A DNA stretch of 64,000 nt, from assembly GCA_033002965.1 (NCBI GenBank), contig JAURVB010009280.1, positions 86,307 to 150,306 of the forward strand. The letters run 5' to 3'. This DNA is from Piper betle (Eukaryota > Streptophyta > Magnoliopsida > Piperales > Piperaceae). The position numbers were made by a program, and so were the translations under genes. The notes beneath the pieces were generated by a model, which was given only the letters and a program-made list of their open reading frames with translations, had not been told where the DNA came from and did no database searches. Positions 2,074 through 64,000 of this stretch are shown here, piece by piece (the first letter of the stretch is position 1; each line of letters starts with the position of its first letter).

Positions 2074-3812
2074 CTATGGCTGTGGTTGTGCCCTACCCAT
2101 CTGCTTCCTAGTCTGTCCTGCAGCCATGTACCCTCTCTGATTTGGTCCCCTTTGCTGCTGCCTCAGTGGTTGTTGGTCCCCACCTCGCTGGCCTTGTCCA
2201 TGGCCCTGTTGGCCTCTCTGCTGTGACTGCTGCTGGGGAGCTGGAAGTGCAAGTCTCTGCTGAGGCGCTGGGAGTGTCAACTGCTGGCTCTGGCTAGTCG
2301 GACACGTTGCAGCCCTATGTCCCGGTTGACCACAACTGTAACAGGCCCTAGTGACTCCTCTGCACTCTGCGGCCCTGTGTCCTGGCTGACCCTAATGCCT
2401 ACTCTGCACTCTGCGGCTCGATGCCCTGGCTGACCGCAGTTGTAGCATACAATTCTGCTTGCTCTGCACTCTCCCCAATGATGGCGTTGGCAACTCTGAC
2501 AGAATGGGGTTCTGTTGCCCTGTACCTGGCCATCCATGGCTCTCATGGCTACTGGCGCATCTACACGTCGTCTCTGCTGTGCCCCCTGTTCTGGCTTATA
2601 TGGCCTCGGATGTTGCTGCCTCTGGTTGACATCTCGACGTGGTCGTGTAGCTATCACCCGCTTTGCTTCACCTGCAGCTCTCACTACGTCACCGAGGATA
2701 GTAAACTTCCTATCCAAGTATGCCATCCGAATCTCATGATGGAGGCCTTCATAGAAGCGCTCTATTCTTCTTCCTTCGGTTGGAACCAAATCTGGTGCAA
2801 ATCTCTCCAACGCTCTAAACCTCGTCTCATACTGTACTACTGTCATAGGCCCTTGCCTCAACATCTAGAACTCTTGTTCCTTCCTTCTCCTAACATCTGG
2901 TGGAAAATACTTTCCATCGAATTCCACTCTGAATTCCTCCCAAGTGATGTCCTGAGACTGGCGATGAGCAAATACAGAATTCTGCACCGAACTCCACCAT
3001 ATCCTCGCTTCGTCTTGGAATGCTCCTGTGACGACGCGCACTCTGTGTTCTACGGGGCATGCCATACTATCAAACACTCCTATGGCCGACAATATCCATA
3101 GAAATGCCTCCTCAGCATCCAACTTCCCAAAGAAAGGTCGTCCGCCATTCTTCACGAATCTCTCATATTGCCACAATTCCAAACTCCTCACGTCTACAGA
3201 TCTATTTGATCCCTCTGCTTGCTCATAATGAGGAATCTGTGATCCCGTACCAACTGGTACACTGTCACCTCTGACTGCTCCACTCCCCCTACGGTTTGCC
3301 CACTGCCTGCTATCGCAGGTCCACCGGCGTCCTGTCTCATCCTTGCCTGAAGTGGGGCAACCAGAGGAGCTGTTGCGGGGGTAGCTCCCTGTTGCAGCGG
3401 TGGAAGAGGAGGCGACGGCGGAGGGCCCATGGGCGCTACTGGCTCTCCTTGCGCCTCTTCATCCACGGCTGGTCTCTTCTCTGCTCTAGCCACTGATAGA
3501 GCTATCTGTCTGAGCTCTCTCCTAAATTCCTCCTGATTCTGCTGCATTTGTATCTGAACATCAACTAGCCTAGCTATCTGCAGCATCCCTTTCCTGTCGA
3601 CTACTCCCACTGCGGTGACTGTCGTGTCGACTGTCTCGGCGATGGCTCTCCGTACAACGACTAGCTGATACCAGTACACTCGTCTCTGTTGGTGGCATGG
3701 TGGTCCTAGGTCGACTGGAAGCTGTGTCACTGTGACCTTGGTCGGGACTATCCTGTCTGACTACTAGAGGCGATGGGGTCCTGATCTGCATTCGACGGGT
3801 CTGTGTCACCAT
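2074..3812 (-). pseudogene. Element A gag (capsid and nucleocapsid)
   Basis: The likely start is the ATG at 3812 (MVTQTRRMQI). A frameshift near 3570-3730 and stops near 3194 and at 2865 split it into at least four pieces. The capsid-like domain is at 2865-3191 (FFGKLDAEEAFLWI, EARIWWSSVQ) and continues in the same frame beyond the TAG at 2865. The nucleocapsid part at 2277-2864 has FCQSCQRHHWGEC followed by the CCHC knuckle CYNCGQPGHRAAEC. Two further knuckle copies follow in shifted frames, the last reading CYSCGQPGHRAATC. A basic, Gln-rich tail (2074-2280) follows. Gag would package the RNA in cytoplasmic particles; this copy cannot make it whole. Confidence 0.85.
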
Positions 3813-3981
3813 CCTGCTAGTAGTTCCTGCTCTAGTCTACTCGCCTATCACACTACCGATTTGTAAGGAAATCTACAATCAAAAACATTAAAACAGAAAA
3901 ATACCTGTCGGAACAGCTCGGAGCAGCTTTGGCACACATGTAACCTATAATGCATCTATCATCTCAATCAACCAAGGGTTA

Positions 3982-4070
3982 GCTCTGATACCACTATTGG
4001 TATTAGAGAACATATGCCAAGAGTTGGCCCTATATCAGAGAACATATGCCAAGAGTTGGCTCTGATACCA
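3982..4070 (-). other. Element A primer-binding site cluster (tRNA-iMet type), rearranged
   Basis: The minus strand reads TGGTATCAGAGC at 4059-4070, four bases inside the LTR, the standard plant initiator tRNA-Met PBS. A second minus-strand copy sits at 3982-3993. Between them a plus-strand PBS-like TGGTATTAGAG (3998-4008) forms an inverted repeat with the second copy. A 28-bp segment is present twice in tandem (4001-4028 and 4033-4060). In relative B only one PBS lies next to the LTR, so the extra 77 bp are specific to this copy. Confidence 0.8.
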
Positions 4071-4074
4071 CTAT

Positions 4075-7000
4075 TGTAACACCCCGTTTCGGCTCACCCG
4101 CGAACCGACCCAGAAATGTCACCGGCGATCGAACCGTTCGTTAATCTACTAGATTTGGTTAAGCCGACCCGGATCTACTCTCGGCGTCTCAAGATGGAGA
4201 TGCAAATATGAAATGCATGAATGAGAACGATTGGGTTCTAACGTGGTCCTACATGCATGATATGATGTACAAGCAAAAACAAGACAAAATAATAAATGAG
4301 AAACCAAAAGAAAATATATACTATTTTATGAAAATACAATAACACATAATAATCTACCATGACATTCAATCATTATCTCATTCGTTTTTACCTGAGCCGA
4401 GTCTGAACTCCAAGGCTCCCTACTCATTCATATTTATCAGTTTGTTTTATAACAGGCAATTCATCAAGACAAAACAATGTAATAATCATTCACACAGCAT
4501 TAAACAACCATCATTATACATTACACGCGGTAGGTACATGTGTGCGCGGTTCCGTGCTGCTCCTCCGCAGTCCCGACAGCTTTCATCGCTCGCATTCCTC
4601 ACCTACATATATATAGAAAACCGTCAATAACGAGTGTTACCGGCCCGGAAAATAACTAATATCAATCTGGCACAGGAGAGCAAACTCTCCTGTTGAATCA
4701 AAACCATATACTTCTTCAAGAACTCTCATCAGGGCACATACGGGAGCCGATTGGGTCTCTAACAGAGTCCTACATGCATGCTATGATGTACAAGCAAAAT
4801 AAGACAAAACAACAAATGAAAAACCAAAAGAAAATATATATTATTTTATGAAAATACGATAACACCTAACAATCTACCATGACATTAAATCATTATCTCA
4901 TTCGTTTTTACCCAAGCCGAGTCTGAACTCCAAGGCTCCCTACTAAGTCATATTTATCAGTTTGTTTCATAACAAGTAATTCATTCAAGACAAAAACATT
5001 GTAATAATCATTCACACAGCATTAAACAACCATCATTATACATTACACGCGGTAAGTACATGTGTGCGCGGTTCCGTGTTGCTCCTCCGCAGTCCCGACA
5101 GCTTTCATCGCTCGCATTCCTCACCTACATATATATAGAAAAACCGTCAATAACGAGTGTTACCGGCCCGGAAAATAACTAATATCAATCTGGCACAGGA
5201 GAGCAAACTCTCCTGTTGAATCAAAACCATATACTTCTTCAAGAACTCTCATCAGGGCACATACCGGAGCCGTCACCGTCGGGCCGTCGCCCTCGGGTCG
5301 ACAGCATCCCCCTATCTTTCTCATTCTCATACCTTGGTCATTTCTCTATCGCTTCTCGCATCAAATTTCTTTCCTTAACGCCCTCTGCACCTTCCATATT
5401 ACTCCTGGCCTTGAGCACAAAGGCCGAGCACTCTCAGGCAGTCGCCTTCAGTACCCTTTGAACCACAAGTCTAGACATGCGCTGCATTGCAGTACCCGTA
5501 AACCTCCACACTTCTCCGGGTTTGAGGAACTCAAAGGTGGAGTTGTCCGAATCCTTCGGGAACGAAGTGGGTTCTCCCCAGCTCCAGAGCCCACTCTTCC
5601 GGGCACACGCCCTATCTGAAGACGTGGCCGCAAGTAACCCTCATTCCATCTCTCATCGAAAACACAAAAACTATATATATATAGGCCTGGGTTGGGATTT
5701 ATACAATAAGCCCGAAGGCAACTTGAGCTGGATCATGAAGTTCTAAAAAAACTCAAGGGATCTCATCCTCGAGGGTTATTAATCCGAAAAAGAACTGTTG
5801 GCTAAATGGCCCGAGTTAAGTGGGATCCGATAAAATGCCACTTAACTCGTCCTGCACATGATAAATCAAATACACAATGGAGTAGCGTAAAAATAGAGAA
5901 CGAGTCCTAAACGGACCTGGTAGAAGCTCCAAACGGGTCCACGCGCCTAGGCGGCGAGCTCCTACACTGTACCTACACAATCAAGCTAAAAACTAACGCC
6001 CCCGCATGATGAATCACACATCCTATAGCATGCACACACAATCAACACAATCACGCATCAATCAACACACATCAACCTATATCAATTCTAGCAAGTCTAC
6101 TTAGGCTAGTTTGCATTAGATCATGATCATTACCTAGTTACCCTAATTAGTTTCTTAGTCTCCATTTTTAACACCACTCAATCAAACAAATTTCATATTT
6201 TATCCTTAATCAAATCTACATTTATACATATTATTATAACACACAATTCACCAATCCTAGCATGCAGTTCTAATAATCAATACTTTCAAATAATTAAGTT
6301 AAAATAAATTATACCTCGCGTTGTCGAAAATCGGCGACGGCTAGGGTTTCCGTTTCGTGGCTCGAAACTCGAATTCGGCACCTAGCGGCGTCCGAAGTCC
6401 GATCAGATTGGACCGGGTGCGTTCGGCGGGTGATCCGGTGAATTTCCCACGAATCCAATTTTCGCGGTTCCAGCGGTTTTCCGGCGAGTGTCGGCGGTTT
6501 TCCGGCGGATTCGGCGGTTTTCCGGCGACGATTCGGGACGGGGCAATCAAGGGGTCTATCGGCACTAGCTCGACGAGCTTGGTCCGATGGTGGTGTCAAA
6601 CAAGGCAGCCGAGGCGGCGATGGCCGTCGACGACGGTGTCGAAAATGGGCGGCGGTGGTGGCGTGCTCCAATCGGGGCTACGGCCGGCCTCGACGGCGGT
6701 CGGGATGGTGGGGGAAACGTCGGCGACGGCGAGGGGGTGGTCGTCGGGGATACAGTGGCGGCGGCGCGTCCCGGACGGCGGCGGAATCCGGCTCGGAGTG
6801 GCGGCGGCCGAGGTGGTTTCGTGGGGCGATTCCGGCGTTGTGGCGACGAGATGGTGGCCGGGGTGGGTCGTGGCGGCACGGCGACTGCACGGCGGGGCGG
6901 GGCGGCGTTGATCGGCGGCTGTATGACGTCGGCGGTGGCGACAAGTACGAGGGGCGGCGAGGGTTTGGGTGAGAATGGTCAGGGAAGAAGAAAACTCACT

Positions 7001-16199: not shown

Positions 16200-17176
16200 T
16201 TAAAAAAATTTCATCCTCGAAGTTTTAACTAAGGAAGTTTCAAACTCATCCATAATCTAAAGAAAAATAATCTCTAGTAAGGTACATAGTTGTGAAGTTG
16301 ATTGCTCAAATATCTCCAGGTATCACTTATTCATCTAATCTTCACATTCCCATGTAGATTCTTCAACTCCTCTTCGAGTCCACTGCACTTGCACCAGGGG
16401 GACTTCTTTCCTTTGGAGACCCTTCACTCTGAGATCCACAATCCAAACTACATCTTTCAGATATGTCAGGTCTGGTTCTAGCTCTATCTCTCTGATGCTA
16501 ACATGAGAGTTGTCTGGATGGTATTTCTTTAGCATTGACTCATGGAAGACAACGTGCATAGCTGATAGGTGAGGCGGCAATGCTAGCCTATACGCCACTG
16601 GTCCATTGTGCTCAATCACGTCAAATGGTCAAATATATCCTGGACTGAGTTTCCTTCGCGTCCCTAGTCTCGTGTTTCCCTTAGTCGGAGAGACCTTTAG
16701 GAGAATGTGAGAAATGAACCTCACGTCTACCCTGACCAACTTAACATTTCTACTTGTCCTGAGCTACTCTCATTCTCCTCCTGATCCGCATCACCACTTC
16801 TTGTGTCTGTTGGATCATCTTTGGCCCAACTACTACTAGCTCGCTACCCTGTACCCAACAGACCAGGGAATGACATGGTTTGCCATATAGTGCTTCATAT
16901 GGTGCCATCCCTATCGTAGCCTGACAGCTATTGTTGTAGGAGAACTAAACTAGAGGTAGGTGTTCTTCCCAATTTCCTCTAAAATCTAAAATGCATGCTT
17001 GGAACAAATCATCTAGGATCTATATACTCCTCTCGGTCTGCCCATCTGTCTGTGGGTGAAAGGCGGTGTTGAATCTCGATTCAGTGCCCATAGCTACTTG
17101 GAAAGCCTTCCAAAATCGAGACGTGAACCTCGGATCCCTGTCTGATATGATCTCTCGTGGTACTCCATGTAGCCTG
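16200..17176 (-). pseudogene. Element B integrase core (part) and C-terminal tail
   Basis: The integrase C-terminal region is open at 16335-16619: YRLALPPHLSAMHVVFHESM, then VQVQWTRRGVEESTWECED, a chromodomain-like tail seen in gypsy chromoviruses. Near 17030-17160 minus-strand translation gives the catalytic segment [16 protein letters not shown] and [10 protein letters not shown], the second Asp and the Glu of the D,D(35)E triad. Frames are broken between these parts. The solo LTR inserted at 17176 separates this part from the integrase amino-terminal half at 19883-20571. Confidence 0.85.
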
Positions 17177-17575
17177 TGTAACGACCCGCCATTTTTCATG
17201 ATAATATTGTGGGCCTAACTGGCTAGGTGTTACTCAAAATTAAAGCAATTATGTCAAACATTATTAGAAATCATAACTTATAATAAAATCCCACAGTCTT
17301 GGACCGTTTCCCAGCAGCCACACTTATTCCTCAATTAAATAACAAAAAGGAGTCCTCATATTACTTTGCTCCATGCTCTAGTTGTCAATCATCTAATCTC
17401 GGATCTGCACACCAGCGGAGGCAATTCCACGTTAGTGATTACAACACTAAGTAGTATAATAGATAAAACAAACAAGTACATTCCACCATTTTCATATATT
17501 TATTTTAATATGCGGTGGAGCGATTCCGCTATACTCCAAAACAATGCGGAGGAGGTGTCCGCTGTGATCCGCACA

Positions 17576-18100
17576 CCCCGGCCGTAGCCTTTTTATGGGG
17601 AGGCTACCACTACCGTCTCCAGTGCCAGTGCCTCGCACACCCCGGCCGTAGCCTTTTTGTGGGGTAGCTATCACTGCACTCGGGTGATTGCTATGCCCCG
17701 TTTGTGGGGAAGCTCTCACTACCAATTCTAGTGTCAGTGCCTCGCACACCCCGGCCGTAGCCTTTTTATGGGGAGGCTATCACTGCACTCCAGTGCCAAT
17801 GCCTTGCACACCCCGGCCGTAGCCTTTTTGTGGGGCGGCTATCACTGCACTCAGGTGATCGCTATGCCCCGTTTGTGGGGAAGCTCTCACTGCCAACTCT
17901 ATCTAGTGCCAGTGCCTCACACACCCCGGCCGTAGCCTTTTTATGGGGTGGCTATCACTGCACTCAGTGCCAGTGCCTCACACACCCCGGCCGTAGCCTT
18001 TTTATGGGGCGGCAATCACTGCACTCTAGTGCGATGGAGGAATCGCTGTGCCTCACTCACCCCGGCCGTAGCCTTTTTATGGGGCGGCTATCACTACTCC
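17576..18100. repeat. Tandem hairpin repeat inside the solo LTR
   Basis: Seven copies of a unit starting CCCCGGCCGTAGCC, at 17576, 17640, 17749, 17811, 17924, 17985 and 18060. Spacing alternates between about 62 and about 110 bp because every second unit carries an extra segment with GCCCCGTTTGTGGGGAAGC. Most units contain GTAGCC, a loop, then GGCTAC or GGCTAT, able to form a stem-loop. Repeated peptides in frames through here are a by-product. Confidence 0.85.
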
Positions 18101-20571: not shown

Positions 20572-20576
20572 GTGGT

Positions 20577-21620
20577 TGTTTGATTAACTCAATAACATGC
20601 AAGTACACATGGTCAGAACAAGTAATATAAGGATGAATTTAAGTATCATCCTACAGAGAGATGAATTTCCTTAAATTAATTAAAATAAATGAAATTATGA
20701 ACAAAATAAAAAGAACGACTTAACTAAATCTAAGTAATAACTTTAAATTAAATTAAAAAGTTATAATGATAAAACTCGTTCTAAAGTCGTATTTCCCTTA
20801 ACTTGAATTTAATATTCATCACATCTTACTCTTATCTTTTATTCTCTTAAATTGCCGATCTAGGAGAATTATATGACATGGTGGCTCCCACTCCTTCATG
20901 CGTCTATTATTTCATCTCAATTTCTACCTTCTAATGATAATTAATTAATCAACAAAATAATGCATTAAGGTTTGCCATCCAATCGTATACGGTCTTGTGT
21001 ATCTCCCGACCACAAAACAAACAAGTCAAAAAACTTGTCGTATGATGAATTATCAATGACTAATCTAACTGATTTCTCCCGAAATCTAATTAAACCTCAT
21101 AATTTAAGTAATAGGTAATTAGTCTACTCTTAGCATTAAGAACATGATAATTCAAGCAATTTAATTGAATAAAAGAGTAAGAGGTTGAAATGTAATCAAT
21201 TAAACCATGTTAAATTCCATTCTTCTCTAGAACAAAATAAAGAATTGATGCATAATAAAAATAGAAAACATTATAAAGAAGAAACTACTTCTTATTATGA
21301 GAGGAAAAGAATTACATAAAGTAGAACTACTTCTATGTCAAGAGTTAAGATATCCCAAATAACAAAAGACCACCCCTTTATATAGAAGATGAGATACCCA
21401 GGAGATAGAAGAATTCAATGAAAGATTCCACAACTCAATGTAGTCTAATTGATTATGATGTTTGATGAAGTTTCCAACTCCCCGACTTACTCAAATCCCG
21501 CTAAAGCTATGCATATTCACCTTCATTGAGCTTTGTCAACACCATAAATTGTAGCCATCAATGGGTGGGGTAAATATTAAAAACATGGGTAAATATTGTA
21601 TACTTTAAACACATAACGCA
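20577..21620 (-). repeat. 3' LTR of element C (1044 bp)
   Basis: Plus strand TGTTTGATTAACTC to ...AACACATAACGCA. To its right, minus-strand TAAGTTTGGAGG (21621-21632) is the polypurine tract. Against the 5' LTR (28212 onward) it lacks about 160 bp near its right end. Confidence 0.88.
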
Positions 21621-21950
21621 CCTCCAAACTTAAACTTTGTGCGTCCCGAGCAAAATATCATAACCAAAAAATTTTTTTTACTACACAAAAATACTTAGTC
21701 CTCATTATATTCTCATATGATTTTTAATCAAGCTATCTAAAGGTAACAAGATGTCAATTAAATTAAAAATTCTCTTTCATCAATCACACCCTAATGATGA
21801 AGGTTGTGTGTGTGTGTGTGTGTGAAGATAATCCTTTTGCTTATCTTTCACATTTGCGACAAGAAAATAACACAATGGCTCATGTTTAAATATGTTTTTC
21901 ATTTGCCTTCATCTCCACTAATGTAAGTGTTTATTTTTGGTTTTTTTAAA

Positions 21951-22375
21951 GAGTAGCCAGCTTTACCTTTTGACGCAAACCCCCATAATTAATAAGTTAT
22001 GAAGGCCCGGTTACTCAGTTACCCCCATAATTACTGAGTTACAAAGGCCCGATTACTCAGCAAAGTAGTCTTTACTCTAATTTATTCACTTTTTTTTTTT
22101 TAATTAAAGAGTAGCCAGCTCTACCTTTTGACATGAACCCCCATAATTACTATGCTACGAAGGCCCGGTTACTTAGCAAAGTGTCAATATGCAAACAAAG
22201 ATAACTAGCTTTACCTGTTGACGCTAAGCCTCATAATTACTAAGTTACGAAGGCCTGATTACTTAGCAAAGTGCCAATATGCAAAGAGAGATAACTAGTT
22301 TTACCTTTTGATGCGAACCCCCACAATTACTAAGTTAGAAAGGCCCAGTTACTCAGCAAAGTAGTTATTGCTCGA
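21951..22375. repeat. Tandem repeats of about 80-110 bp in the 3' non-coding region of C
   Basis: Four to five imperfect copies carry AGTAGCCAGCTTTACC or ATAACTAGCTTTACC, CCCCCATAATTACT and AAGGCCCGGTTACTCAGC. They sit between the integrase and the 3' LTR where Athila elements have long untranslated or env-like sequence. No ORF runs through them. An AT-rich tract around 22086-22106 interrupts the array. Confidence 0.75.
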
Positions 22376-22705
22376 ATTTATTCATTTTTGTTTCTATTTT
22401 CGTTTGTTTTTTTAGAAGAAAAAAAATACTAGGACAAACCTAAAACAACCAGAGCCGTCATGCAAATTCTTATGATTAAAAGATTTTTCCTATCGTAAAA
22501 CATTCATTGAAATCATCGAAACCAAAGGATTGTGAAAATAATATAAGGTAGAAAACCAATTCTTGAATGCAATCATCTACTCAGTTCATCCCTCATATTA
22601 ATTAATCAAAATTTCCCAAGAAAGGTAAGACTAATTCACATATATCTATCTAATGAACCAATGTACTAATATATTGTTGCATAATAAAATTTTTACACTA
22701 AACTA

Positions 22706-22707
<2 letters not shown>

Positions 22708-22753
<46 letters not shown>
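22708..22753. repeat. (TA)n microsatellite, about 22 units
   Basis: Near-perfect TA run in the 3' non-coding part of C. The corresponding place in element G (63125-63138) has only a few units. Confidence 0.95.
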
Positions 22754-22755
<2 letters not shown>

Positions 22756-22997
22756 AAACATGAATTGTACATGAACAATATGCACAAAATTAAGGCATCC
22801 CCCGCACCTAAACTAAACATTGTCCTGAATGTTGAAAAAAATAAATATAAAAATAAAGAGAAAGAAGTAAAAGAGAACTCCCTCAACCAATTAATCGGTG
22901 GATGATTATCATGAATAATTGAATTTGCACTTGACCCATTCTTGGGTTGCCTCCTAAGAAGTGCTTGGTTTAACGTCTACAGCCAAACGCCTATTTC

Positions 22998-23993
22998 TCA
23001 TTCTTTATTTAATGTGATGGAAGACTTCCAAAGTTGCTCCCCTTCATAGTAGTGTTTCAGTCTAAATCCATTAACTTTAAATGATTGATCCCCTTGTTCA
23101 GTGTTAATTCCAATTGCATCATGTGGAAATATTGTTTGTACTATGTAAGGACCAGACCATCTTGATTTCAATTTTCCTTTGAAAATTTTCAACCTTGAGT
23201 CATATAACAATACCTTTTGTCCAGGAGAAAATGGTTTAGAAGCAATTCTTTGATCATGCCATGCTTTGCATTTTTCCTTATAGATCTTAGCATTTTCATA
23301 AGAAGCTCTCATAATTTCTTCTAATTCAATAAGTTGTTGTAGTCTCATTTTTCCACATGTTTCCAAGTCAAAATTCAATTCCTTAATGGCCCAAAAAGCT
23401 TTATGCTCTAATTCTAGGGGAAGATGACAAGCCTTTCCAAACACTAATTGATAAGAGGACATGCCAATTGGTGTCTTGAAAGCTATTCTATAAGCCCATA
23501 GAGCATCATCTAACCGAATAGACCAATCCTTTCTATTACCTTTTACTACCTTCTCTAGAATTTTAAGAATCTCTCGATTGGATACTTCAGCCTGGCCATT
23601 AGTTTGTGGATGGTAAGCGGTGGCAACCTTATGTTTCACTCCATACTTAGCCAATAAAGCTTCAAATTACCTATTGCAAAAGTGAGACCCTCCATCACTA
23701 ATGATTGCCCGAGGTGTACCAAATCTGGTAAAGATATTCTTCTTTAAAAACTTAACCACCACCTTGGCATCATTCGATGGTAAAGCTACTGCTTCAACCC
23801 ATTTAGAAACATAATCGACAGCTAAAAGAATATAAGTGTTAGAGTTTGATGGAGGAAAAGGACCCATAAAATCTATACCCCATACATCAAATAATTCCAC
23901 TTCAAGAATAGAGTTGAGAGGCATTTTGTTTTTCCTTGACAGATTTCCAGCCTTTTGACAGCTGATCACATCTCTCAATAAAATGTCTTGCAT
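22998..23993 (-). pseudogene. Element C integrase core and C-terminal domain
   Basis: 23667-23993 encodes the first two catalytic acids: [14 protein letters not shown] and [12 protein letters not shown] stop at about 23664-23667 interrupts, then 22998-23654 continues in another open piece (218 codons) with [17 protein letters not shown], holding the catalytic Glu. Next comes [15 protein letters not shown], and the C-terminal [19 protein letters not shown] and SRWSGPYIV. All three catalytic acids are present, so loss of function comes from the stop and an upstream frameshift. The same C-terminal motif occurs, rejoined, in the fused ORF of G. Confidence 0.9.
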
Positions 23994-24776
23994 CTTTAAA
24001 TAGTGTAGGCCAAAATAATCCTGATTGGAGAACTTTCATCGTTGTCCTAGTACTTCCAAAGTGCCCGCCATAATCTGTTGAGTGACAATGATGAAGTATG
24101 GACTCCATTTCATCTTTTGGTACACATCTTCTTATCATCCCATCAGCACATTGCTTGAAGAGAAGAGGGTCATCCCAAAAATATGACTTAGCCTCATGAA
24201 GAAATCGTTTCTTTTGTTGAAAGTTCAAGTCCGGTGGCATCTTCCCACTCACCAAGTAATTTGCTAAATCAGCAAACCATGGGACAACACCACTTGCAAT
24301 GGCCAATATATTTTCATCAGGGAAAACCTCATTCATGGGTGGATTATCCTTAACGTTGTATGTTTTGCTCAACCAAGAAAGGTGGTCCACTACAACATTC
24401 TCGCTTACTTTCTTGTCCTTAATCTCGACATCAAATTCCTGCAATAAAAGAACCTAACAGATTAGCCTAGGTTTGGAATCTCTCTTAGACAAAAGGTATT
24501 TTATAGCAGCATGATCAGTATATACAATAACCTTTGAACTTAGCAAATATGATCTAAACTTATCAACAACATGCACTACTTCTAACAATTCTTTTTCAGT
24601 TGTAGTATAATTGCTTTGTGTATCATTCAATGTCTTACTAATGTAGTAGATAACATTTAAAATGTGCCCTTCCTTTGGCCTAATACAACACCTATCGCAT
24701 GGTCACTAACATCACACATTAATTCAAAAGGTCATGACTAATCCAGTGCAATCACAATGGGAGTTGAAATCAATTT
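23902..24776 (-). pseudogene. Element C RNase H end and integrase zinc-binding domain
   Basis: At about 24445-24560 minus-strand translation gives VYTDHAAIKYLLSKRDSKPR, the end of RNase H. 23902-24444 begins with the RNase H tail FDVEIKDKKVSENVVVDHLS and continues into the integrase HHCC finger: HCHSTDYGGHFGSTRT and FIERCDQ. The last Cys of the finger falls in another frame (23667-23993), so a frameshift near 23960 cuts the finger. A further break near 24440 separates the RNase H halves. Confidence 0.82.
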
Positions 24777-25640
24777 TCATTTCAAAGTCTCAAAAGCTTT
24801 CAAACATGCATCATCAAAATAAAAAAATGCATCTTTTTCTAGTAAAGCATATAAAGGTTTTGAGATCTGAGAAAAATCCTTTATAAACCATCTTAAGAAT
24901 CCTGCATGTCCTAGAAAACTTATAATTTCTTTCACTGATGTAGGTGGTGGGAGCCTCTCTACAGCTACAATTTTTCCCTTGTCTAATTCAAGTGCTTGGC
25001 ATGAAACTTTATGTCCCAAAACTATTCTTTCCTTAACCATAAAATGACATTTTTTCCAATTAAGAACAAGATTAGTGTCTTGACAACATTTAAGAACACA
25101 AGATAAAATAGATAAGTAGTCATCAGAAATCTCTCCAAAAATAGTAAAGTCATCTATAAATACTTCTAGGCCATGTTCAATCATATCAGTAAATATGGCC
25201 ATCATTTATCTATGGAATGTAGTGGGAGCGTTACACAAGCCAAAGGGCATTCACCGAAAAGAAAAAGTGCCATAAGGACAAGTGAACATCGTCTGTTCTT
25301 GATCCTCAGGTGCAATGGTAATCTGATTGTAACCTTAATATTCATCAAGAAAACAAAAATGAGCATTCCCAACTAATCTATCAAGCATTTGATCAATAAA
25401 AGGAAGAGGAAAGTGATTTTTTTGTAGCCTTGTTGAGCTTCCTATAGTCCAGGCACACACTCCACCCCGTGAGGTTCTTGTAAAAATCAGTTCATCTCTT
25501 TACCACGTTACACCTCCTTTCTTTGGTACACATTGTATTGGACTTACCCAAGTACTATCAACAATGGGACACATCACTCTACCATCCAACCACTTAATAA
25601 TTTCATTATTGACCACTTCTTTTATGTTCGGGTTGAGTCG
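24777..25640 (-). pseudogene. Element C reverse transcriptase, palm and thumb
   Basis: 24777-25205 is open and has the catalytic box EVFIDDFTIFG, then LNWKKCHFMVKERIVLGHKV and ISFLGHAGFLRWFIKDFSQ. The upstream fingers/palm part (25206-25640) is only visible as scattered motifs across frames, with stops. The IDD in place of the usual MDD is conservative. The polypeptide is in pieces. Confidence 0.83.
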
Positions 25641-26618
25641 TCATTCATGCTCTACAATTGGACTGCATCCGTCCACTACGTTGATCCTATGCATACAAAA
25701 GGAGGGATCGATGCCTTTTATGTCTGCTATAGTCCAAGCAATAGCTGATTTGTGATCCTTTAGTATTCTAATCAACTTCTCTTCCTGCAACATAGTTAGC
25801 TCTGAAGAAATAATAACAGGAAGAGTGTCATTAGGCCCCAAGAAAGTATACTTGAAATGTTTTGAAAGTTGCTTTAGCTCCAAAATAGGTTGTACTTCAA
25901 CTGATGGTGGCAATCTATGGAATGGGAGATATAAAGTTTCCACAACTCTGAATCTCCAAGGCAAGATTGGTTGTGAATCTAATACTTTAACCATTTCATC
26001 CACATCAGTATCGCCTTTACAAAGAAAATTTATGGCCTTATCTAATGAATCACTCAACAGTATTTTATCAAATAGTTCAATTCTAGAACAATCATATGTT
26101 GCATTTGGGCAAGTCATGGATTTGAAGATGTTATATGTGACATAGTTGTTATTTACCCTAAGTGTAAGTTTTCTAGCGGCTACGTCGATTAGTGTTCTCC
26201 CTGTTCCCAATAAACCTTTCCCAACAATGAGTGGTATATTGTCATTCCTTCCTTCCATTTCGAGCACCACAAAATTTGCAGGAAAGTTAAACTTGTCAAC
26301 CTTTATTAAAACATCTTCAATGACTCCTTTAGGATATACCAATGATCGGTCAACCAACTGGAGTGTGATGTTAGCAGAAGCAATGTCCTAGATTCCTAAC
26401 CTTTTGAAAACAAAAAAAGGCATCAGATTAATGCTAGAACCTAAGTCACATAAAGCATTACAATGAACATTTCCTCCAATTGAACATGAAATAACAAATT
26501 TGTTCGAACCATTCATCTTAGGAGGCAGTTTTCTTTGGAGGACAACACTACATTCCTCTGTCATAGCCACAACTTCATTGTCATCTACTCTCCTTTTCCT
26601 TGCTAGAATATCCTTCAA
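25641..26618 (-). pseudogene. Element C protease and RT leader
   Basis: 26388-26618 ends with NALCDLGSSINLMPFF, the aspartic protease active site in the D-x-G form of Athila elements (Asp58 of this segment). An in-frame stop at 26388 is followed in the same frame by 25641-26357 (PLIVGKGLLGTGRTLIDV, then the RT leader KSAIAWTIADIKGI and CMHRINVVDG). One stop therefore separates the protease halves, and the frame is lost again at 25640 where RT proper should begin. Confidence 0.85.
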
Positions 26619-27100
26619 GTATTTTATATAGGCATCTGTTCTAGTGCTTCAGCGAAAGGTATGTTAATTTGTAATTTCTTAAATATATCACAAAAATTTT
26701 TGAAGTATTTTTCATCACTTTGTTTCCTTAGTCTAGAAGGAAATGGTAATTTTTTGTTCAACCTGTTCTACATGTACCACATCTTTCTCTTTCCTTTTAC
26801 TTCCGAATAAGATAACCAATATAATGTGTTCATGTTCATTATTTGGCTTTTCATCTTTTTCCTTAACTTTATTCAACTAAACTGGTTGTTGAAAAGTAAT
26901 ACCACTCCAGGTTGTTATAGCTTTGCAATGCCCTTGACCATCTTTCCTTGGTTGTTCTGGTTGGCTAGGAAGTACACCCTTGGGTTGCTCACTTGGTTCC
27001 TTGTTTAATTGCAACACAACTTGTTGCATAAACTGTTGTTGTTGTTGCTGATTCTGCGTAAATTATTGCATAATTTGTTGCATAGAATTGAACATTTGGA

Positions 27101-27900
27101 TCAAATTCGATTGTTGTGGTTGAAAAGGAAGTGAAGGGGGTTGAGATGCTGTGATGGTGGTGGTGGATTATTGAGGACAGTAGCTGATTGTGGAGAATTA
27201 TTCCATGAAAAATTGGGGTTATTGCGCAAGCCCGAATTGTAGGTATTGGAATATGGATTGCTGTTCCTACTAAAGTTGCCTACATAGTTAACTTGATTAG
27301 TTAAACATTGACCTATAGAATGTCCTTGTCCACACCATTCACACATTGGCTCCACAACATTAACTTGTCCCTGCATATTAAGATTTTTAACATATTAGCT
27401 AAAGCACTAACCTGAGCAGATAAAGTAGTAAGTGCATCAAATTCTAAACTCCGATAATCCTCCTCGGGTGCCTTTCTTGTGTTGCATGGTGGTTGCTAGG
27501 CAACATCAATTCTAGCAATTGAAAAGCTTCATGTAGGTTCTTCCTAAGAAACGATCCATTGGCCGCCACATCAACTATGTTCTTTGTTTGCCCCAACAAC
27601 CCGTTATTGAAAGTTTGGAGTAGCATCCATCTTTCTATATCATGGATGAGACACTTTTTCAACAATTCTTTTAATCTTTCCCATGCCTCAAAGAGAGGCT
27701 CACCATCAAACTGAAAAAAAAGATAAAATTTTGTTATGTAATCTAGTAGTTTTAGGAGGAGGAAAATGTTTTAACAAAAATTTTTTAGACAATTCATCCC
27801 AAGTGGTAATTGCATTTAATGATGACAACAGGGCAATCCAAGATTGGGTTGTACCTCTTGGAAGAGGTTATAACCTAGTATTATTGCACCATAGATGAAT
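27101..27900 (-). pseudogene. Element C gag remnant
   Basis: 27101-27376 holds the knuckle CEWCGQGHSIGQC (C12, C15, H19, C24) and the VNYVGNF and NPYSNTYN motifs of Athila Gag. 27444-27665 holds an upstream capsid piece (FNNGLLGQTKNIVD, then GSFLRKNLHEAFQLLE). Frames change between them. The amino-terminal part beyond 27700 merges into an inverted repeat (27821-28028) that has scrambled the start. A short open Gln-rich linker seen in G is interrupted here. Confidence 0.8.
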
Positions 27901-28028
27901 GCGACTCACTTCGAGCTTAAACCGGTATTATTTAACATGTTACAAACTATAGGAAAAGGTGCCATAATACTAGGTTGTAACCATCTTGCAAGAGGTACAA
28001 CCCAATCTTGCATTGCCTTGTTGTCATC
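27821..28028. repeat. 70-bp inverted repeat plus direct repeat in the gag leader of C
   Basis: Arms 27821-27890 and 27958-28028 are about 90 percent complementary, around a 67-bp loop. The segment CTTCGAGCTTAAACC starting in the loop (27909) recurs directly after the right arm (28073), each followed by about 32 matching bases. Confidence 0.85.
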
Positions 28029-28211
28029 AATGGCTACTGTTATAATCGGTGGATTCGACCGGCTTCGAGCTTAAACCAGTTTTATTTAACATGTTATAAA
28101 CTATAGGACAATTTAGTGGATTGCATATTGAAAATCCTAATAAGCATATCATCGATATCGTATCGATTTGTGATATGTATAAACAACCTAGTGTCTCTAG
28201 CACCAAAAACT

Positions 28212-29343
28212 TATTTGATTAACTCAATAACATGCAAGTATACATGGTCGGAATAAGTAATATAAAGATGAATTTAAGTATCGTCCCAATGAGATGAATT
28301 TCCTTAAATTAATTAAAGAAAATGAAATTAAGAACACAATAAAAACAATCAACTTAACTAAATCTAAGTAATAACTTTAAATTAAAGAAAAAGTTATAAT
28401 GATAAGACTCGTTCTAGAGTCGAATTTCCTTAACATGAATTTAATATTCATCACATCTTAATCTTATCTTTTATTCTTGAATTGCCAATCTAGGAGAATT
28501 ATATGACATAGTGGCTCCTGCTCCTTCATGCATCTATTATTTTGCCTCAATTTCTACATCCCGGTGATAATTGATTAGTTAACAAAATAACGCATTAAGG
28601 TTTGCTTTACAATGGCATACGGTGTTGTGTGTCTCCCGACCACAACAACAAACAAGTCAAAAGACTCGTAGTATGATGAATTATCAACTAGTCTAACTGA
28701 TTTCTCCTGAAATCTAATTAAACCTCATAATCTAAGTAATAAGTGATCTATCTACTCTTAGCATTAAGAATATAATAATTCAAGCAATCCAATTGAATAA
28801 AATAGTAAGAGGTTGAAATGGATTCAATTAAACCATGTTAAGTTCTATTCTTCTCTAGAACGAAATAAATGATTACTTCATAATAAGAATAGAAAACATT
28901 ATAAAGAATAAACTACTTCTCATTATGAAAGGAAAAAAATTACAAAAAGTAGAACTACTTCTAAGCCAAGAGTTGATATATCCCAAACAACAAATGACCA
29001 CCCCTTTAAATAGAAGATTGAGATGCCCAACAGATACAAAAATTCAAGGAAGGATTCCACAACTCAATGTAGTCTAATTAATTATAGTATCCGATGAAGT
29101 TTCCAAGTCCCTAACTTACTCAAAGGCAACCAAAGCTATGTATATCCATCCTTATTGAGCTTTTTCAACACCATAAATTGTAGCCATCAATGGATGGGGT
29201 CCAATGCTCTGACCAACAATTCCTAAGCGTCTTTGTTTTCAATTTTTTTCTGCATTAAATTCCAAAATTAAACATATCTAATAAAATATTAAGTAACTAA
29301 AAATAAAATAAAATATCACCTAATTAATAATATTTATACCCAG
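28212..29343 (-). repeat. 5' LTR of element C, part 1 (interrupted by D)
   Basis: Aligns with the 3' LTR of C from its TTTGATTAACTC end. D enters at 29344 (TSD CCCAG at 29339-29343) and the LTR resumes at 36837. The bases left of 28212 (minus strand TTTTTGGTGCTAGAGAC) do not match the tRNA-Asp PBS found in G. Confidence 0.87.
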
Positions 29344-30369
29344 TGTAAAGACCCGGAAAAAAAATTCATTAACTGGTTAAGTATAAATTACCCGATTAAA
29401 TTGAAAAGTAATTTCTAATCGGACGATTCTAGTTGAATCAGTTGAGTTGAACACATTAATTATCCATTTAACCATTTAAGTGAACCATACCATTTAAGAA
29501 GATGAGTGAAAAGGTTAAGTGAACCGTGTTAATTACCCAATTACCTGGTTAAAGGAATTATGGTGAAAGGGTGCTTCCACAAACCCTAGCCGTCATTTAT
29601 TCTTTATAAAAGGAGAAGGGGTCGTTGAACCTAGAAAATACCAATGGATGTGGGGTGTGAAAATTTAATGAAGGGATCATTGAACCTAGGAAACACCAAT
29701 GGATGATGGGGTATGAGAATTTAATAGAGGGAATGGTTGATGTGTATATATATGCAGGAGGAGGGAGTATTTCATCCCTCATCTCCGTCCCAGGCGACCT
29801 CCCCATTACTGTGCGAGTATTTCATCCCTCATCTCCGTCCCAGGCGACCTCCCCATTACTGTATTAGGGTTCACGGGTCACAGTCAGGCGTAATCACAAA
29901 TCAGGTACGTATAATAGGTAGAACATCATATTTTCCTTGTTGGTAGCCTAGGTCGGCCTGAGCCCAGATTCGACTACCATGCACCGAGTGCAACCGGGGT
30001 CAATGAATTACCTCAGTCTGACACTAGGTCGTGTTATGTGCATGAATTTTGTAATTCATCGACATTGTTTTGGAGTAGTGATAGCCACCCCATAAAAAGG
30101 CTACGGCCGGGGTGAGTGAGGCACAGCGATTCCTCCATCGCACTAGAGTGCAGGTACGAGATTAGGTGATTGACATCCAGAGTATGGAGCAAAATAAATA
30201 TGAGGACTCCTTTTTTTATTTAATTGAGAAATAATTGTGGCTGCTAGGAAACGGTCCAAGACTGTGGGATCTTTATATATGTTATTATTTATAAAAAATG
30301 TTTGACATAATTACTTTACTTTTGAGTAACACCTAGCCACTTAGGCCCACAATATCGTGAAAAATGGCG
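29344..30369 (+). repeat. 5' LTR of element D, shortened
   Basis: Starts TGTAAAGACCCGG. Relative to the 3' LTR it lacks 551 bp (the copy of 36055-36605) between two GTGCAG sites. It also lacks its last 10 bp together with the first half of the PBS: the LTR stops at GGCG and CAGAGC, the end of the tRNA-iMet PBS, follows at 30370-30375. Confidence 0.92.
29605..29611 (+). promoter_or_regulatory. Candidate TATA box of element D LTR
   Basis: TATAAAA in the context CTTTATAAAAGGAG. The same site is at 35505-35511 in the 3' LTR, and a matching ATTTTATAAGG is in the solo LTR. Confidence 0.5.
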
Positions 30370-35241: not shown

Positions 35242-36831
35242 TGTAAAGACCCGAAAAAAAAATTTTCATTAGCTGGTTAAGTATGAATTACCTGGTTAAA
35301 TTGAAAAGTAATTTCTAATCGGACGATTCTAGTTGAATCAGTCGAGTCGAACACATTAATTATCCATTTAACCATTTAAGTGAACCATACCATTTAAGAG
35401 GTTGAGTGAAAAGGTTAAGTGAACCGTGTTAATTACCCAATTACCCGGTTAAAGGAATTATGGTGAAAGGGTGCTTCCACAAACCCTAGCCATCATTTAT
35501 TCTTTATAAAAGGAGAAGGGGTCGTTGAACCTAGGAAATACCAATGGATGATGGAGTGTCAGAATTTAATAAAGGGGTCGTTGAACCTAGGAAATACCAA
35601 TGGATGATGGGGTATGAGAATTTAATGGAGGGAATGGTTGATGTGTATATATATGCAGGAGGAGGGAGTATTTCATCCCTCATCTCCGTCCCAGGCGACC
35701 TCCCCATTACTGTGTGAGTATTTCATCCCTCATATCCGTCCCAGGCGACCTCCCCATTACTGTATTAGGGTTCACGGGTCACAGTCAGACGTAATCACAA
35801 ATCAGGTACATATAATAGGTAGAACATCGTATTTTCCTTGTTGGTAGCCTAGGTCGGCCTGAGCCCAGATTCGACTACCATGCACCGAGTGCAACCGGGG
35901 TCAATGAATTGACTCAGTCCGACACTAGGTCGTGTTATGTGCATGAATTTTGTAATGCATCGACATTGTTTTGGAGTAGTGATAGCCACCCCATAAAAAG
36001 GCTACGGCCGGGGTGAGTGAGGCACAGCGATTCCTCCATCGCACTGAAGTGCAGTGATAGCCGCCCCATAAAAAGGCTACGGCCGGGGTGTCTGAGGCAC
36101 TGGCACTAGAATTGGTAGTGAGAGCTTCCCCACAAACGGGGCATAACAATCACCTGAGTGTAGTGATAGCCGCCCCACAAAAAGGCTATGGCCAGGGTGT
36201 GCAAGGCATTGGCACTGGAGTGCAGTGATAGCCTCCCCATAAAAAGGCTACGGCCGGGGTGTGCGAGGCACTGGCACTAGAATTGGTAGTGAGAGCTTCC
36301 CCACAAACGGGGCATAGCAATCACCCGAGTGCAGTGATAGCTACCCCACAAAAAGGCTACGGCCGGGGTGTGCGAGGCACTGGCACTGGAGACGGTAGTG
36401 GTATCCTCCCCACAAAAAAGGCTACGGCCGGGGTGTGCGGATCACAGCGGATACCTCCTCCGCATTGTTTTGGAGTATAGCGGAATTGCTCCACCGCATA
36501 TTAAAATAAACTTAAGGAAATAGTGGAATGTACTTGTTTTATTTTATCTATTATACTACTTAGTGTTGTAATCACTAACGTGGAATTGCCTCCGCAGGTG
36601 TGCAGATACGAGATTAGGTGATTGACATCCAGAGTATGGAGCAAAATAAATATGAGGACTCCTTTTTTTGTTTAATTGAGAAATAAGTGTGGCTGCTGGG
36701 AAACGGTCCAAGACTGTGGGATCTTTATATATGTTATTATTTATAAAAAATGTTTGACATAATTACTTTACTTTTGAGTAACACCTAGCCAGTTAGGCCC
36801 ACAATATCGTGAAAATTGGCGGGTCGTTACA
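35242..36831 (+). repeat. 3' LTR of element D (1590 bp)
   Basis: TGTAAAGACCCG to GGTCGTTACA. It contains two local tandem duplications, one of about 59 bp at 35517-35630 (GAACCTAGGAAATACCAATG repeated) and one of about 52 bp at 35665-35765 (TCCGTCCCAGGCGACCTCC repeated). It also holds the hairpin array at 35980-36445. Confidence 0.93.
35980..36445. repeat. Hairpin tandem array in 3' LTR of D
   Basis: Six units with GGCTACGGCCGGGGTG, at about 36006, 36081, 36191, 36251, 36361 and 36426. Spacing 75, 110, 60, 110, 65 is nearly the mirror image of the array in the solo LTR, which lies in the opposite orientation. The 5' LTR keeps one unit. Confidence 0.88.
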
Positions 36832-36836
36832 CCCAG

Positions 36837-60400: not shown

Positions 60401-60556
60401 ACTCAAATAAAGACCAAAAATAAGAGCCAAGACGACATAGTATTTAACCGGGAGGCACCAAGCACAGGAAAGATTAAGGTTGTGGCCTCACACATACCAT
60501 GCCATACATACGCATGTCACAAAAGTTTCAGGCAAGCAACTTGATCCGGGTCTAGA
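57479..60556 (-). repeat. 5' LTR of element F (over 3 kb), cut by element G
   Basis: Starts TGTAACACCCCAATTTG next to the PBS. The middle has the same architecture as LTR A (CATATATATAAG followed by an AACTACTAATA-type stretch). From 58950 it matches the fragment at 9385-11490. Its last part matches 44036-44285. It stops at 60556, where element G begins, before the LTR end. A second TGTAACACACC at 58950 leaves open that two abutting LTRs are present instead of one. Confidence 0.6.
59622..59831. repeat. Three 72-bp tandem repeats in LTR F
   Basis: ATACCTACACTG at 59622, 59694 and 59766, each followed by GGCTATTGCAAGCAATAAAG or a variant. The related fragment near 10440-10500 has one copy. Confidence 0.88.
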
Positions 60557-61501
60557 TGTTAGACTAATTTTAATAGCATGCAAGTGTACATGGTCGTAAC
60601 AAGTAATATAATGATAAATCGAGTATCGTCCCACAGGGAGATGAATTTCCTTAAATTAATTAAAGAAAATAAAATTAAGAACAAAACAAAAATAATTAAC
60701 CTAACAGAATCTAAATACTAACTTTAAATTAAAAGAGAAGTCAAAATTATAAAACTCGTTCTAGAGTCAAATTTCCCTTAACATGATTTTAATCTTCATC
60801 ATATCTTACTTCTTATCTTTTATTCCCTCGGATTGTCGATCTAGGATAATTATACGACATGGTGGCTCCGTTCCTTCATGCTTCCATTATTTTGCCTCAA
60901 TTTCTACCTCCCGGTGATAATTGATTGATCAACAAATAACGCTTAAGATTGCCCTTACAATCGCATACGGTGTTGTGTATCTTCCAACCACAACGACAAA
61001 CAAGTCAAAAGACTCGTCAGTATGATGAATTATCAATGACTAATCTTTTGACTTGTTTGTCGTTGTGGTCGGAAGATACACAACACCGTATGCGGTTGTA
61101 AGGCAATTCTTAATGCGTTATTTTGTTGATTAATCAATTATCACCGGGAGGTAGAAATTGAGGCAAAATAATAGAAGCATGAAGGAGCGGGAGCCACCAT
61201 GTCGTATAATTATCCTAGATCGACAATCCGAGGGAATAAAAGATAAGAGTAAGATATGATGAAGATTAAAATCATGTTAAGGGAAATTCGACTCTAGAAC
61301 GAGTTTTATAATTTTGACTTCTCTTTTAATTTAAAGTTAGTATTTAGATTCTGTTAAGTTAATTATTTTTGTTTTGTTCTTAATTTTATTTTCTTTAATT
61401 AATTTAAGGAAATTCATCTCCCTGTGGGACGATACTCGATTTATCATTATATTACTTGTTACGACCATGTACACTTGCATGCTATTAAAATTAGTCTAAC
61501 A
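60557..61501. repeat. 945-bp palindrome of LTR G
   Basis: Left arm 60557-61011 and right arm 61045-61501 are reverse complements with roughly a dozen differences in about 456 bp, around a 33-bp centre. The left copy including the centre corresponds to the first 488 bp of LTR C counted from its plus-strand left end. The right copy is the same segment inverted, and forms the 5' LTR of G. Confidence 0.95.
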
Positions 61502-61507
61502 AGTTTT

Positions 61508-61523
61508 TGGCGCCGTTGCCGGG
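61508..61523 (+). other. Primer-binding site of element G (tRNA-Asp)
   Basis: TGGCGCCGTTGCCGGG, complementary to the 3' end of plant tRNA-Asp, the usual Athila primer. The match resumes with GATCGAA after one extra base. Confidence 0.9.
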
Positions 61524-62974: not shown

Positions 62975-64000
62975 TAATCATCCACCGACTAATGATATGA
63001 GGGAGTTCTCTTTCACTTCTTTTTCTTTATTTTTATTTTTGAGGACAATGTTTAGTTTAAGTTTGGGGGTGATGCCTTAATTTTATGCATATTGTTCATG
63101 CTTGACTCATGTTTAGATTTAGATATACATATATATAGTGTAGTTTAGTATAAAAATTTTATTATGCAATAGTATTTTAGTCTCTTGGTTCAATGATAGA
63201 TACATGTGAATTAGTCTTACCTTTCTTGGGAAAACTTGATTAATTGATATGAGGGATGAACTGAGTAAAAGATTGCATTTGAGAGTTGGTTCTCTACCTT
63301 ATAATATTTTCACAATCCTTTGGTTTAGATGATTTCAATGAATGTTTTGCAATAAGGATTGTACATGATGGTCATGACTTTTAGAATTTGCCCTAGCGAC
63401 TTTCGAGGCGAAATATTTGGTTTGCCATGTTGATGGAAAATGATATAGGCATTTCTTTTGATGAGTCTGGGCCTTTCTTCAAGCCTACCTAATATGAATT
63501 ATCCTTTGTACACAATTTCATGGCCTTTATTATACATATTTGTTTGATTACCCTTATTTTAGCCTTGGCCTTTTTATTGAAAATATATCTTGCTGTTTGA
63601 GTCCTAGCACCCTAGTGTTTTGAATTCGTTCTAAATTCTAACAGGGATGAAACTTTGAGTAGTATAGGGGAAGGCATTGCGTGTTATAGAGTGGTGATTG
63701 AGTAGATAGTGTGGACTTTCCTGACACTTTGCTTTGTAAAAAAAAAAAGAAAAAAGAAAAAAAGAAAAGAAAAGATGAGGCAATGATCCTCCACCAGTAA
63801 ACACAAGATGAAGCAAGAGTCTTCCACTGGTTTGAAAGAAAAGAGAAAAAGAAAAAGTAAAGAAACAATAGGTAGTCAATGGAAAACTCAAAGCAAAGTT
63901 AGTTCTTATACTGGGTCACTTCGATACCACATTTACGGAAGTTTGTGATCGTATTACTCAGATTTGTTAGCACACGTAACCTAAAACCAGCTAGTCACAC
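62975..64000 (+). other. 3' non-coding region of element G
   Basis: The stretch GTCAAGTCCAAATTCAGTTA and the following TTATTCATGATAATCATCC match element C downstream of its integrase. It includes a purine-rich block at 63738-63775 and again around 63835-63870, with poly-A/G runs. No ORF is supported. Confidence 0.75.

Follow-up and report, generated by a model that had tools for sequence, protein, structure and literature searches.

A palindrome in place of the 5′ LTR of a Piper betle retrotransposon: a possible integrated fold-back cDNA

Element G, an LTR retrotransposon of Piper betle, carries a near-perfect palindrome where its 5′ LTR would be expected. The two arms are head-to-head copies of the R-U5 half of the LTR, and the right arm leads through a primer binding site (PBS) into the internal region. 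With about as much confidence as doubt, we favor the explanation that G is an integrated fold-back cDNA, i.e., a strong-stop strand that was extended on itself, or on a sister strand, before integration. Three further inverted LTR pairs of the same family lend weight to this explanation, while a marked asymmetry in the differences between the arms complicates it.

Structure of the Palindrome

The window analyzed here is a 64,000-nucleotide stretch that forms the last 64 kb of contig C6315, in an assembly of 527 Mb and 11211 contigs. In a BLAST comparison of the window with itself, positions 60557–61501 proved to be their own reverse complement (945 bp, 95.8% identity over 950 columns), and a repeat search found the same two arms, in pieces, at this place, confirming the near-perfect palindrome reported in the initial annotation. 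The arms were then mapped onto the 1172-bp LTR of family copy C365 as a reference (Table 1), and what is seen directly is the anatomy of the arms, their exact ends, the order of the parts, and the junction.

The outer left end is the exact U5 terminus (TGTTAGAC, inverted ...GTCTAACA), and its left neighbor is sequence unrelated to the family LTR. The right arm, which is identical at 457 of 457 positions to the LTRs of both C365 and C8944, is followed by AGTTTT and then TGGCGCCGTTGCCGGG, as in other family members. This PBS is presumably of the tRNA-Asp type. Right arm, PBS, and internal region thus follow one another as in full copies. G has no complete 5′ LTR starting TGTTAAG; LTR 1–714 is absent from the right arm and LTR 1–681 from both arms. 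Two claims made from the raw sequence therefore hold good on alignment to the LTR and inspection of the flanks, namely that the 5′ LTR of G is represented in the right arm by its R-U5 half, with the U3 half absent, and that a clean U5 terminus forms the outer left end, beside unrelated DNA. The arms are unequal in that 33 bp (LTR 682–714) occur only in the left arm, bar three ambiguous bases. Positions 61011–61045, which had been suspected as a mis-joined boundary, turned out to be mostly this extra LTR piece of the left arm and not foreign sequence. Folding of the DNA at the palindrome center gave no advantage over shuffled sequence (z −0.8 and −0.6), and no tRNA-like sequence was seen there.

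Table 1. Features of element G and of an older relative in the window.
Feature	Position	Strand	Basis or remark
CTAGA, five bases left of the palindrome	60552..60556	.	expected left half of 5-bp target duplication
Left arm, inverted LTR 1172 to 682	60557..61046	-	outer end intact U5 terminus; 14 differences vs C365
Left-arm part without right-arm partner (LTR 714 to 685)	61013..61043	-	loop in snap-back model
Junction, TCT, 3-bp overlap of both arms	61044..61046	.	alignment to C365 LTR
Right arm, LTR 715-1172	61044..61501	+	0 differences vs C365 over 457 bp compared
PBS of element G	61508..61523	+	sequence; position shared by family members
Internal region of G, cut by contig end	61502..64000	+	alignment to family copies
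Element E, older relative	20576..29200	-	LTRs 28211-29200 and 20576-21571

The contig stops at its position 150306, which is window position 64000 and lies inside G, so the right end of the element and its target duplication fall beyond this contig. The first 2454 bp of the internal region align to copies C9198, C9243, C10009, and C10580 at 93.8–96.5%, and the last 45 bp gave no alignment to these four. Window 63800–64000 as a whole departs from the same copies, with 41 private substitutions in the last bin; this deviating stretch of ~200 bp may be poor sequence at a contig end or another junction. A Pfam search of the G open reading frame returned no domain.

The Retrotransposon Family and Its LTR

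The family set consists of element E, with two LTR copies, and matches on 35 other contigs, obtained from the 40 of 2720 candidates that were scored. Most loci were taken with short flanks, such that inverted partners further off would be missed. Full LTRs are 1145–1176 bp long and run from TGTTAAG to TAACA, and their U5 and U3 ends are alike (TGTTA/TAACA). Matching 5-bp flanks were found in 14 of 44 LTR rows, including that of C365 (GAGAC), in a test that a row representing one end of a two-LTR element cannot pass. Inspection by eye of two-LTR elements revealed matching outer flanks in C9243 (TTGTA), C10580 (CAATT), C10009 (AATGC), and C9198 (CATCC). With an LTR of the form TGTTAAG...TAACA, 5-bp target duplications, a PBS presumably of the tRNA-Asp type, and an internal region, the family resembles an ordinary plant Ty3/gypsy LTR retrotransposon, probably an Athila-like one. 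G differs from such an element in that its 5′ LTR is replaced by U5′-R′-R-U5, from which U3 and the promoter are absent.

A palindromic LTR as the norm of the family can be ruled out. The normal LTR contains a weak inverted pair (~81 bp at 75%) and no long palindrome, and 34 of the 35 other contigs have at least one LTR aligned over LTR 1–1167 or more; the exception, C1285, shows only LTR 343–1172 and does so at a contig start. The LTRs of element E, which also has an integrase zinc-binding domain at 23902–24444, are 83–87% like the arms of G and are not palindromic. A fold-back DNA transposon would be expected to recur as the same inverted-repeat unit; among the 40 of 2720 candidates scored, the full palindrome was matched only at the G locus.

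A TATA-like box (CTATATAAAGG) lies at LTR 332 of C365, and a longer form of it occurs in 43 of 48 loci, several of which are the same place counted twice. Judging from this motif, transcription would start ~30 bases past the box. Both arms of G begin wholly downstream of it (LTR 682 and 715), so they presumably consist of strong-stop (R-U5) sequence only, and the “5′ LTR” of G is left without a promoter. Since the palindrome lacks the TATA-like box of the LTR, any idea that it gives rise to siRNA would need read-through transcription.

A Fold-Back Model

We infer the following course for G. Minus-strand strong-stop DNA, begun at the tRNA primer beside U5, would have stopped ~490 nt on. A 3-bp match would then have let its 3′ end pair with the same strand (snap-back) or with a second cDNA, and extension from there would have produced plus-strand R-U5-PBS, with the PBS coming from copying on into the tRNA. 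This product, taking the place of the usual plus-strand strong-stop DNA, would have undergone transfer at the PBS and extension into the internal region. Finally, integrase would have joined to the target the outer U5 end (...TAACA), whose last five bases match those of the U3 end. The model predicts that the element starts on its outer left with inverted U5, continues on the right with R-U5-PBS-internal region, and closes with an ordinary 3′ LTR, where the sequence ...TAGTCTAACA should be followed by CTAGA.

Several features speak for such an origin. The arms are confined to what should be strong-stop sequence, the outer end lies exactly at the LTR terminus, and the extra loop sequence is on the strand that reads as minus-strand DNA; products of the same kind, described below, are found within the family. 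Other features speak against it. There is no stable hairpin at the center, a feature that would be helpful and not strictly defining. The fold point lies ~320–350 nt downstream of the expected transcription start, and an early stop must therefore be assumed. It also weighs against the model that neither the far end of G nor a target duplication is present on this contig.

The initial annotation had also proposed self-integration of the cDNA or a later inversion. Autointegration is a known fate of cDNA, but its product should have an LTR end at the newly formed junction, and in G LTR 682 is joined to LTR 715, with an LTR end on neither side. A simple inversion is insufficient as well, since by itself it does not duplicate R-U5. 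Both routes are accordingly rejected in these forms, and together we regard them as highly improbable.

Related Palindromes in the Genome

Inverted LTR pairs were found on three of the 35 other contigs (C5514, C1489, and C3478), a fraction that gives no estimate of frequency, given a palindromic query, 40 of 2720 candidates scored, and short flanks. Like G, each of the three is an inverted LTR pair of the one family; they are tail-to-tail with tRNA-like sequence between the LTRs, whereas G is head-to-head without such a center. That none of the three is head-to-head also counts against a fold-back origin of G.

In C5514 (locus L009, 3000–12900; palindrome 3730–6091), a full LTR (3730–4900) and an inverted LTR (4947–6091) are separated by 46 bp. 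The sequence AATAT borders the palindrome on either side and is missing from the inner LTR ends; because it is duplicated around the whole palindrome only, the palindrome was probably inserted as one unit. Near the inverted U5, the 46-bp center contains CTGGGCTCGGATCCAGCAGCCACACCA, which we take to resemble the 3′ portion of tRNA-His, altered at the position that usually carries 1-methyladenosine.

The unit in C1489 (locus L010, 1–9000; unit 2708–4167) consists of a full LTR (2708–3863), the PBS, and antisense then sense tRNA-like sequence, followed on the right by the inverted U5 of an LTR without its middle. At its center is CCCGC CTGTCAC GCGGG, an anticodon-type arm with GTC in the loop. 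As a candidate target duplication, GTCAT flanks the unit on the right and also occurs on the left, 33 bp before the LTR. The arrangement has the appearance of a plus-strand strong-stop DNA whose synthesis ran on through the primer before the strand folded back at the anticodon arm.

C3478 (locus L045, 25500–31500; 1255–4507) contains an LTR, a coding-like piece, ~60 nt of tRNA-like sequence joined directly to an inverted U5, and an LTR in inverted orientation. We assume the ~60-nt piece to be tRNA-Asp-like. Further rearranged or repeated partial pieces of the family are present at this locus (with L047, 8153–9900), and no clear target duplication was seen there. A 117-aa open reading frame in C3478 appears reverse transcriptase-like by eye, and Pfam found no domain in it.

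ARAGORN predicted no tRNA genes in the three loci, and the search of Rfam gave no tRNA match at the gathering score, with a best value of 23.1 bits against a cut-off of 29; the palindrome with this score also matched many unrelated hairpin families. The tRNA reading of the centers draws on the PBS, on GTC in the C1489 loop, and otherwise on general resemblance to tRNA sequences. Because of the duplication around C5514 and the tRNA-like center of C1489, integration of fold-back cDNA seems to occur in this family. Of the routes first considered for G, fold-back is thus the one best supported, through the tRNA-like centers of the related loci and the C5514 duplication; at G itself it is inferred. 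A broader proposition can be put forward tentatively, at somewhat less than even confidence: the family would repeatedly integrate palindromic cDNAs, its strong-stop strands folding on themselves or on a sister, some of them after copying the primer tRNA up to the anticodon arm, itself the hairpin on which the strand would snap back (C1489), and in one case apparently with tRNA-His instead of tRNA-Asp (C5514). G would be the head-to-head form, in which the U5 end replaced the U3 end in integration.

Differences between the Arms

The palindrome had been described as having about a dozen differences per arm and, from their small number, as recent. Compared with C365, all 14 differences fall in the left arm, and the right arm has 0 over 457 bp (p = 1.2e-4 for the split). 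A one-sided set of differences is no simple measure of the age of the event, and the claim of recency is not borne out. Dating by arm divergence was thus discarded, the differences being both one-sided and rich in indels. Seven are substitutions, all of them transitions, and seven are single-base indels, as against 15 indels among 142 private changes in four ordinary copies (p = 8e-4). Ten of 13 left-arm events lie within 150 bp of the center (p = 0.0014).

None of the 14 differences was found, by exact place and kind, in the 25 other rows compared. New 15-mers created in the left arm were present in other loci in 14 of 153 cases, and of the ten matched 15-mers listed, nine represent one variant common with C3478 and one is shared with C2674. 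The corresponding figures for five ordinary copies were 37/76, 76/148, 55/63, 66/88, and 75/75, and a sixth copy, C3478, gave 68/237. In C5514, the inverted arm differs from its partner by 54 events, 20 of them indels and 27 within 250 bp of the center. Because C5514 resembles G in this respect despite having its center at a different place in the LTR, the pattern of differences seems to be tied to the palindrome and not to the LTR.

Differences of this kind are a better match for an unpolished arm of the assembly, or for mutation linked to the palindrome, than for ageing. On the simplest interpretation, polishing would have passed over one arm, with short reads of both arms mapping to the better one, the read type being assumed. 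On the other hand, 136 of 398 new 15-mers of the worn arm of C5514 are present in other loci, and its substitutions include 15 C>T vs 3 G>A; these two features fit an older or different parentage, or real mutation, and argue against polishing as the whole story. The left arm of G may itself reflect real palindrome-linked mutation or a second template.

For a fold-back origin this asymmetry is a further difficulty. The arms of a self-primed strong-stop cDNA are expected to be identical at birth, and direct snap-back can therefore account for the 14:0 split only with the help of an assembly error, a second template, or mutation that later affected one arm alone. A second template would be available if the arms derived from two different co-packaged RNAs, a form of fold-back that is counted within the confidence given to it above and that we consider quite unlikely taken singly. 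It would explain the split without an assembly error, and C5514 likewise pairs a cleaner with a worn arm whose variants are partly present in other copies (136/398 15-mers); however, no donor copy with the left-arm variants appeared among the loci compared.

A serious rival, if a rather unlikely one, invokes two insertions and a deletion. Here an older inverted element (H) would have resided in the element on the left flank, G would have inserted beside or in the 3′ LTR of H, and a microhomology deletion would have removed the U3 of G together with the rest of H, leaving the R-U5 halves head-to-head. The 3-bp overlap at the junction suits this account, a pristine and a worn arm would come from a young and an old copy, and the outer U5 end would simply be the old element's own end. 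A worn arm can also share variants with other copies, as C5514 illustrates with the same 136/398. In the left arm of G, by contrast, the share of new 15-mers found elsewhere (14/153) is below that of ordinary copies, and the proportion of indels (7/14) is above that in four ordinary copies (15/142). The account further requires two random breaks to mirror each other within 33 bp of a ~1170-bp LTR.

A misassembly or a chimeric read, near a contig end with weak support, could instead have created the whole head-to-head join, which we judge to be unlikely. The contig ends 2.5 kb away, inside G, its last ~200 bp deviate from the family, and the left arm resembles unpolished sequence. Moreover, failure of nanopore base calling in inverted duplicates has been described (PMC7229812), and such miscalls would be relevant here on the assumption that nanopore reads were used. 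Yet a simple fold-back read would re-enter the left flank rather than the PBS and internal region of G, and a randomly ligated molecule could hardly be expected to stop precisely at the LTR terminus with its halves mirrored to within 33 bp. G also shows 13 private changes in 2750 bp of a five-copy alignment, from the right arm to ~63800.

Comparison with Known Systems

Self-priming of strong-stop DNA has been described in HIV-1, where the product is an aberrant cDNA that is reduced by nucleocapsid protein (PMC4668388). The fold-back proposed for G is like the process outlined in that source in that strong-stop DNA turns back at its 3′ end and is extended on itself, which would yield inverted R-U5. 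In G, by contrast, the product would have gone on to acquire an internal region and to be integrated, and the fold-back point lies away from the likely 5′ end of R. A literature search of titles and abstract openings, with subscription papers mostly outside its scope, found no description of integrated palindromic LTR cDNAs, which is weak evidence of their absence from the literature.

If the fold-back origin is confirmed, genomes would hold a fossil record of failed strand transfers, and integrated DNA could reveal the strand that folded, its stopping point, the tRNA that served as primer, and the extent to which this tRNA was copied. Confirmation would also suggest that a U5 end can replace a U3 end in the integration of a natural element, and that a single step of retrotransposition can yield near-perfect inverted repeats, which are possible sources of silencing RNA.

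Other Inverted Repeats

Another inverted pair, at 82% identity, directly adjoins a solo LTR of the family in C11125 (locus L033, 5700–9000; 1808–2294 and 2550–3011). Bar a few bases at the LTR end, this pair matched neither the family LTR nor the internal region. The window itself contains a further set of repeats, 92–96% identical and partly inverted, at 29344–30153, 35242–36054, 17176–18020, and 35978–36832.
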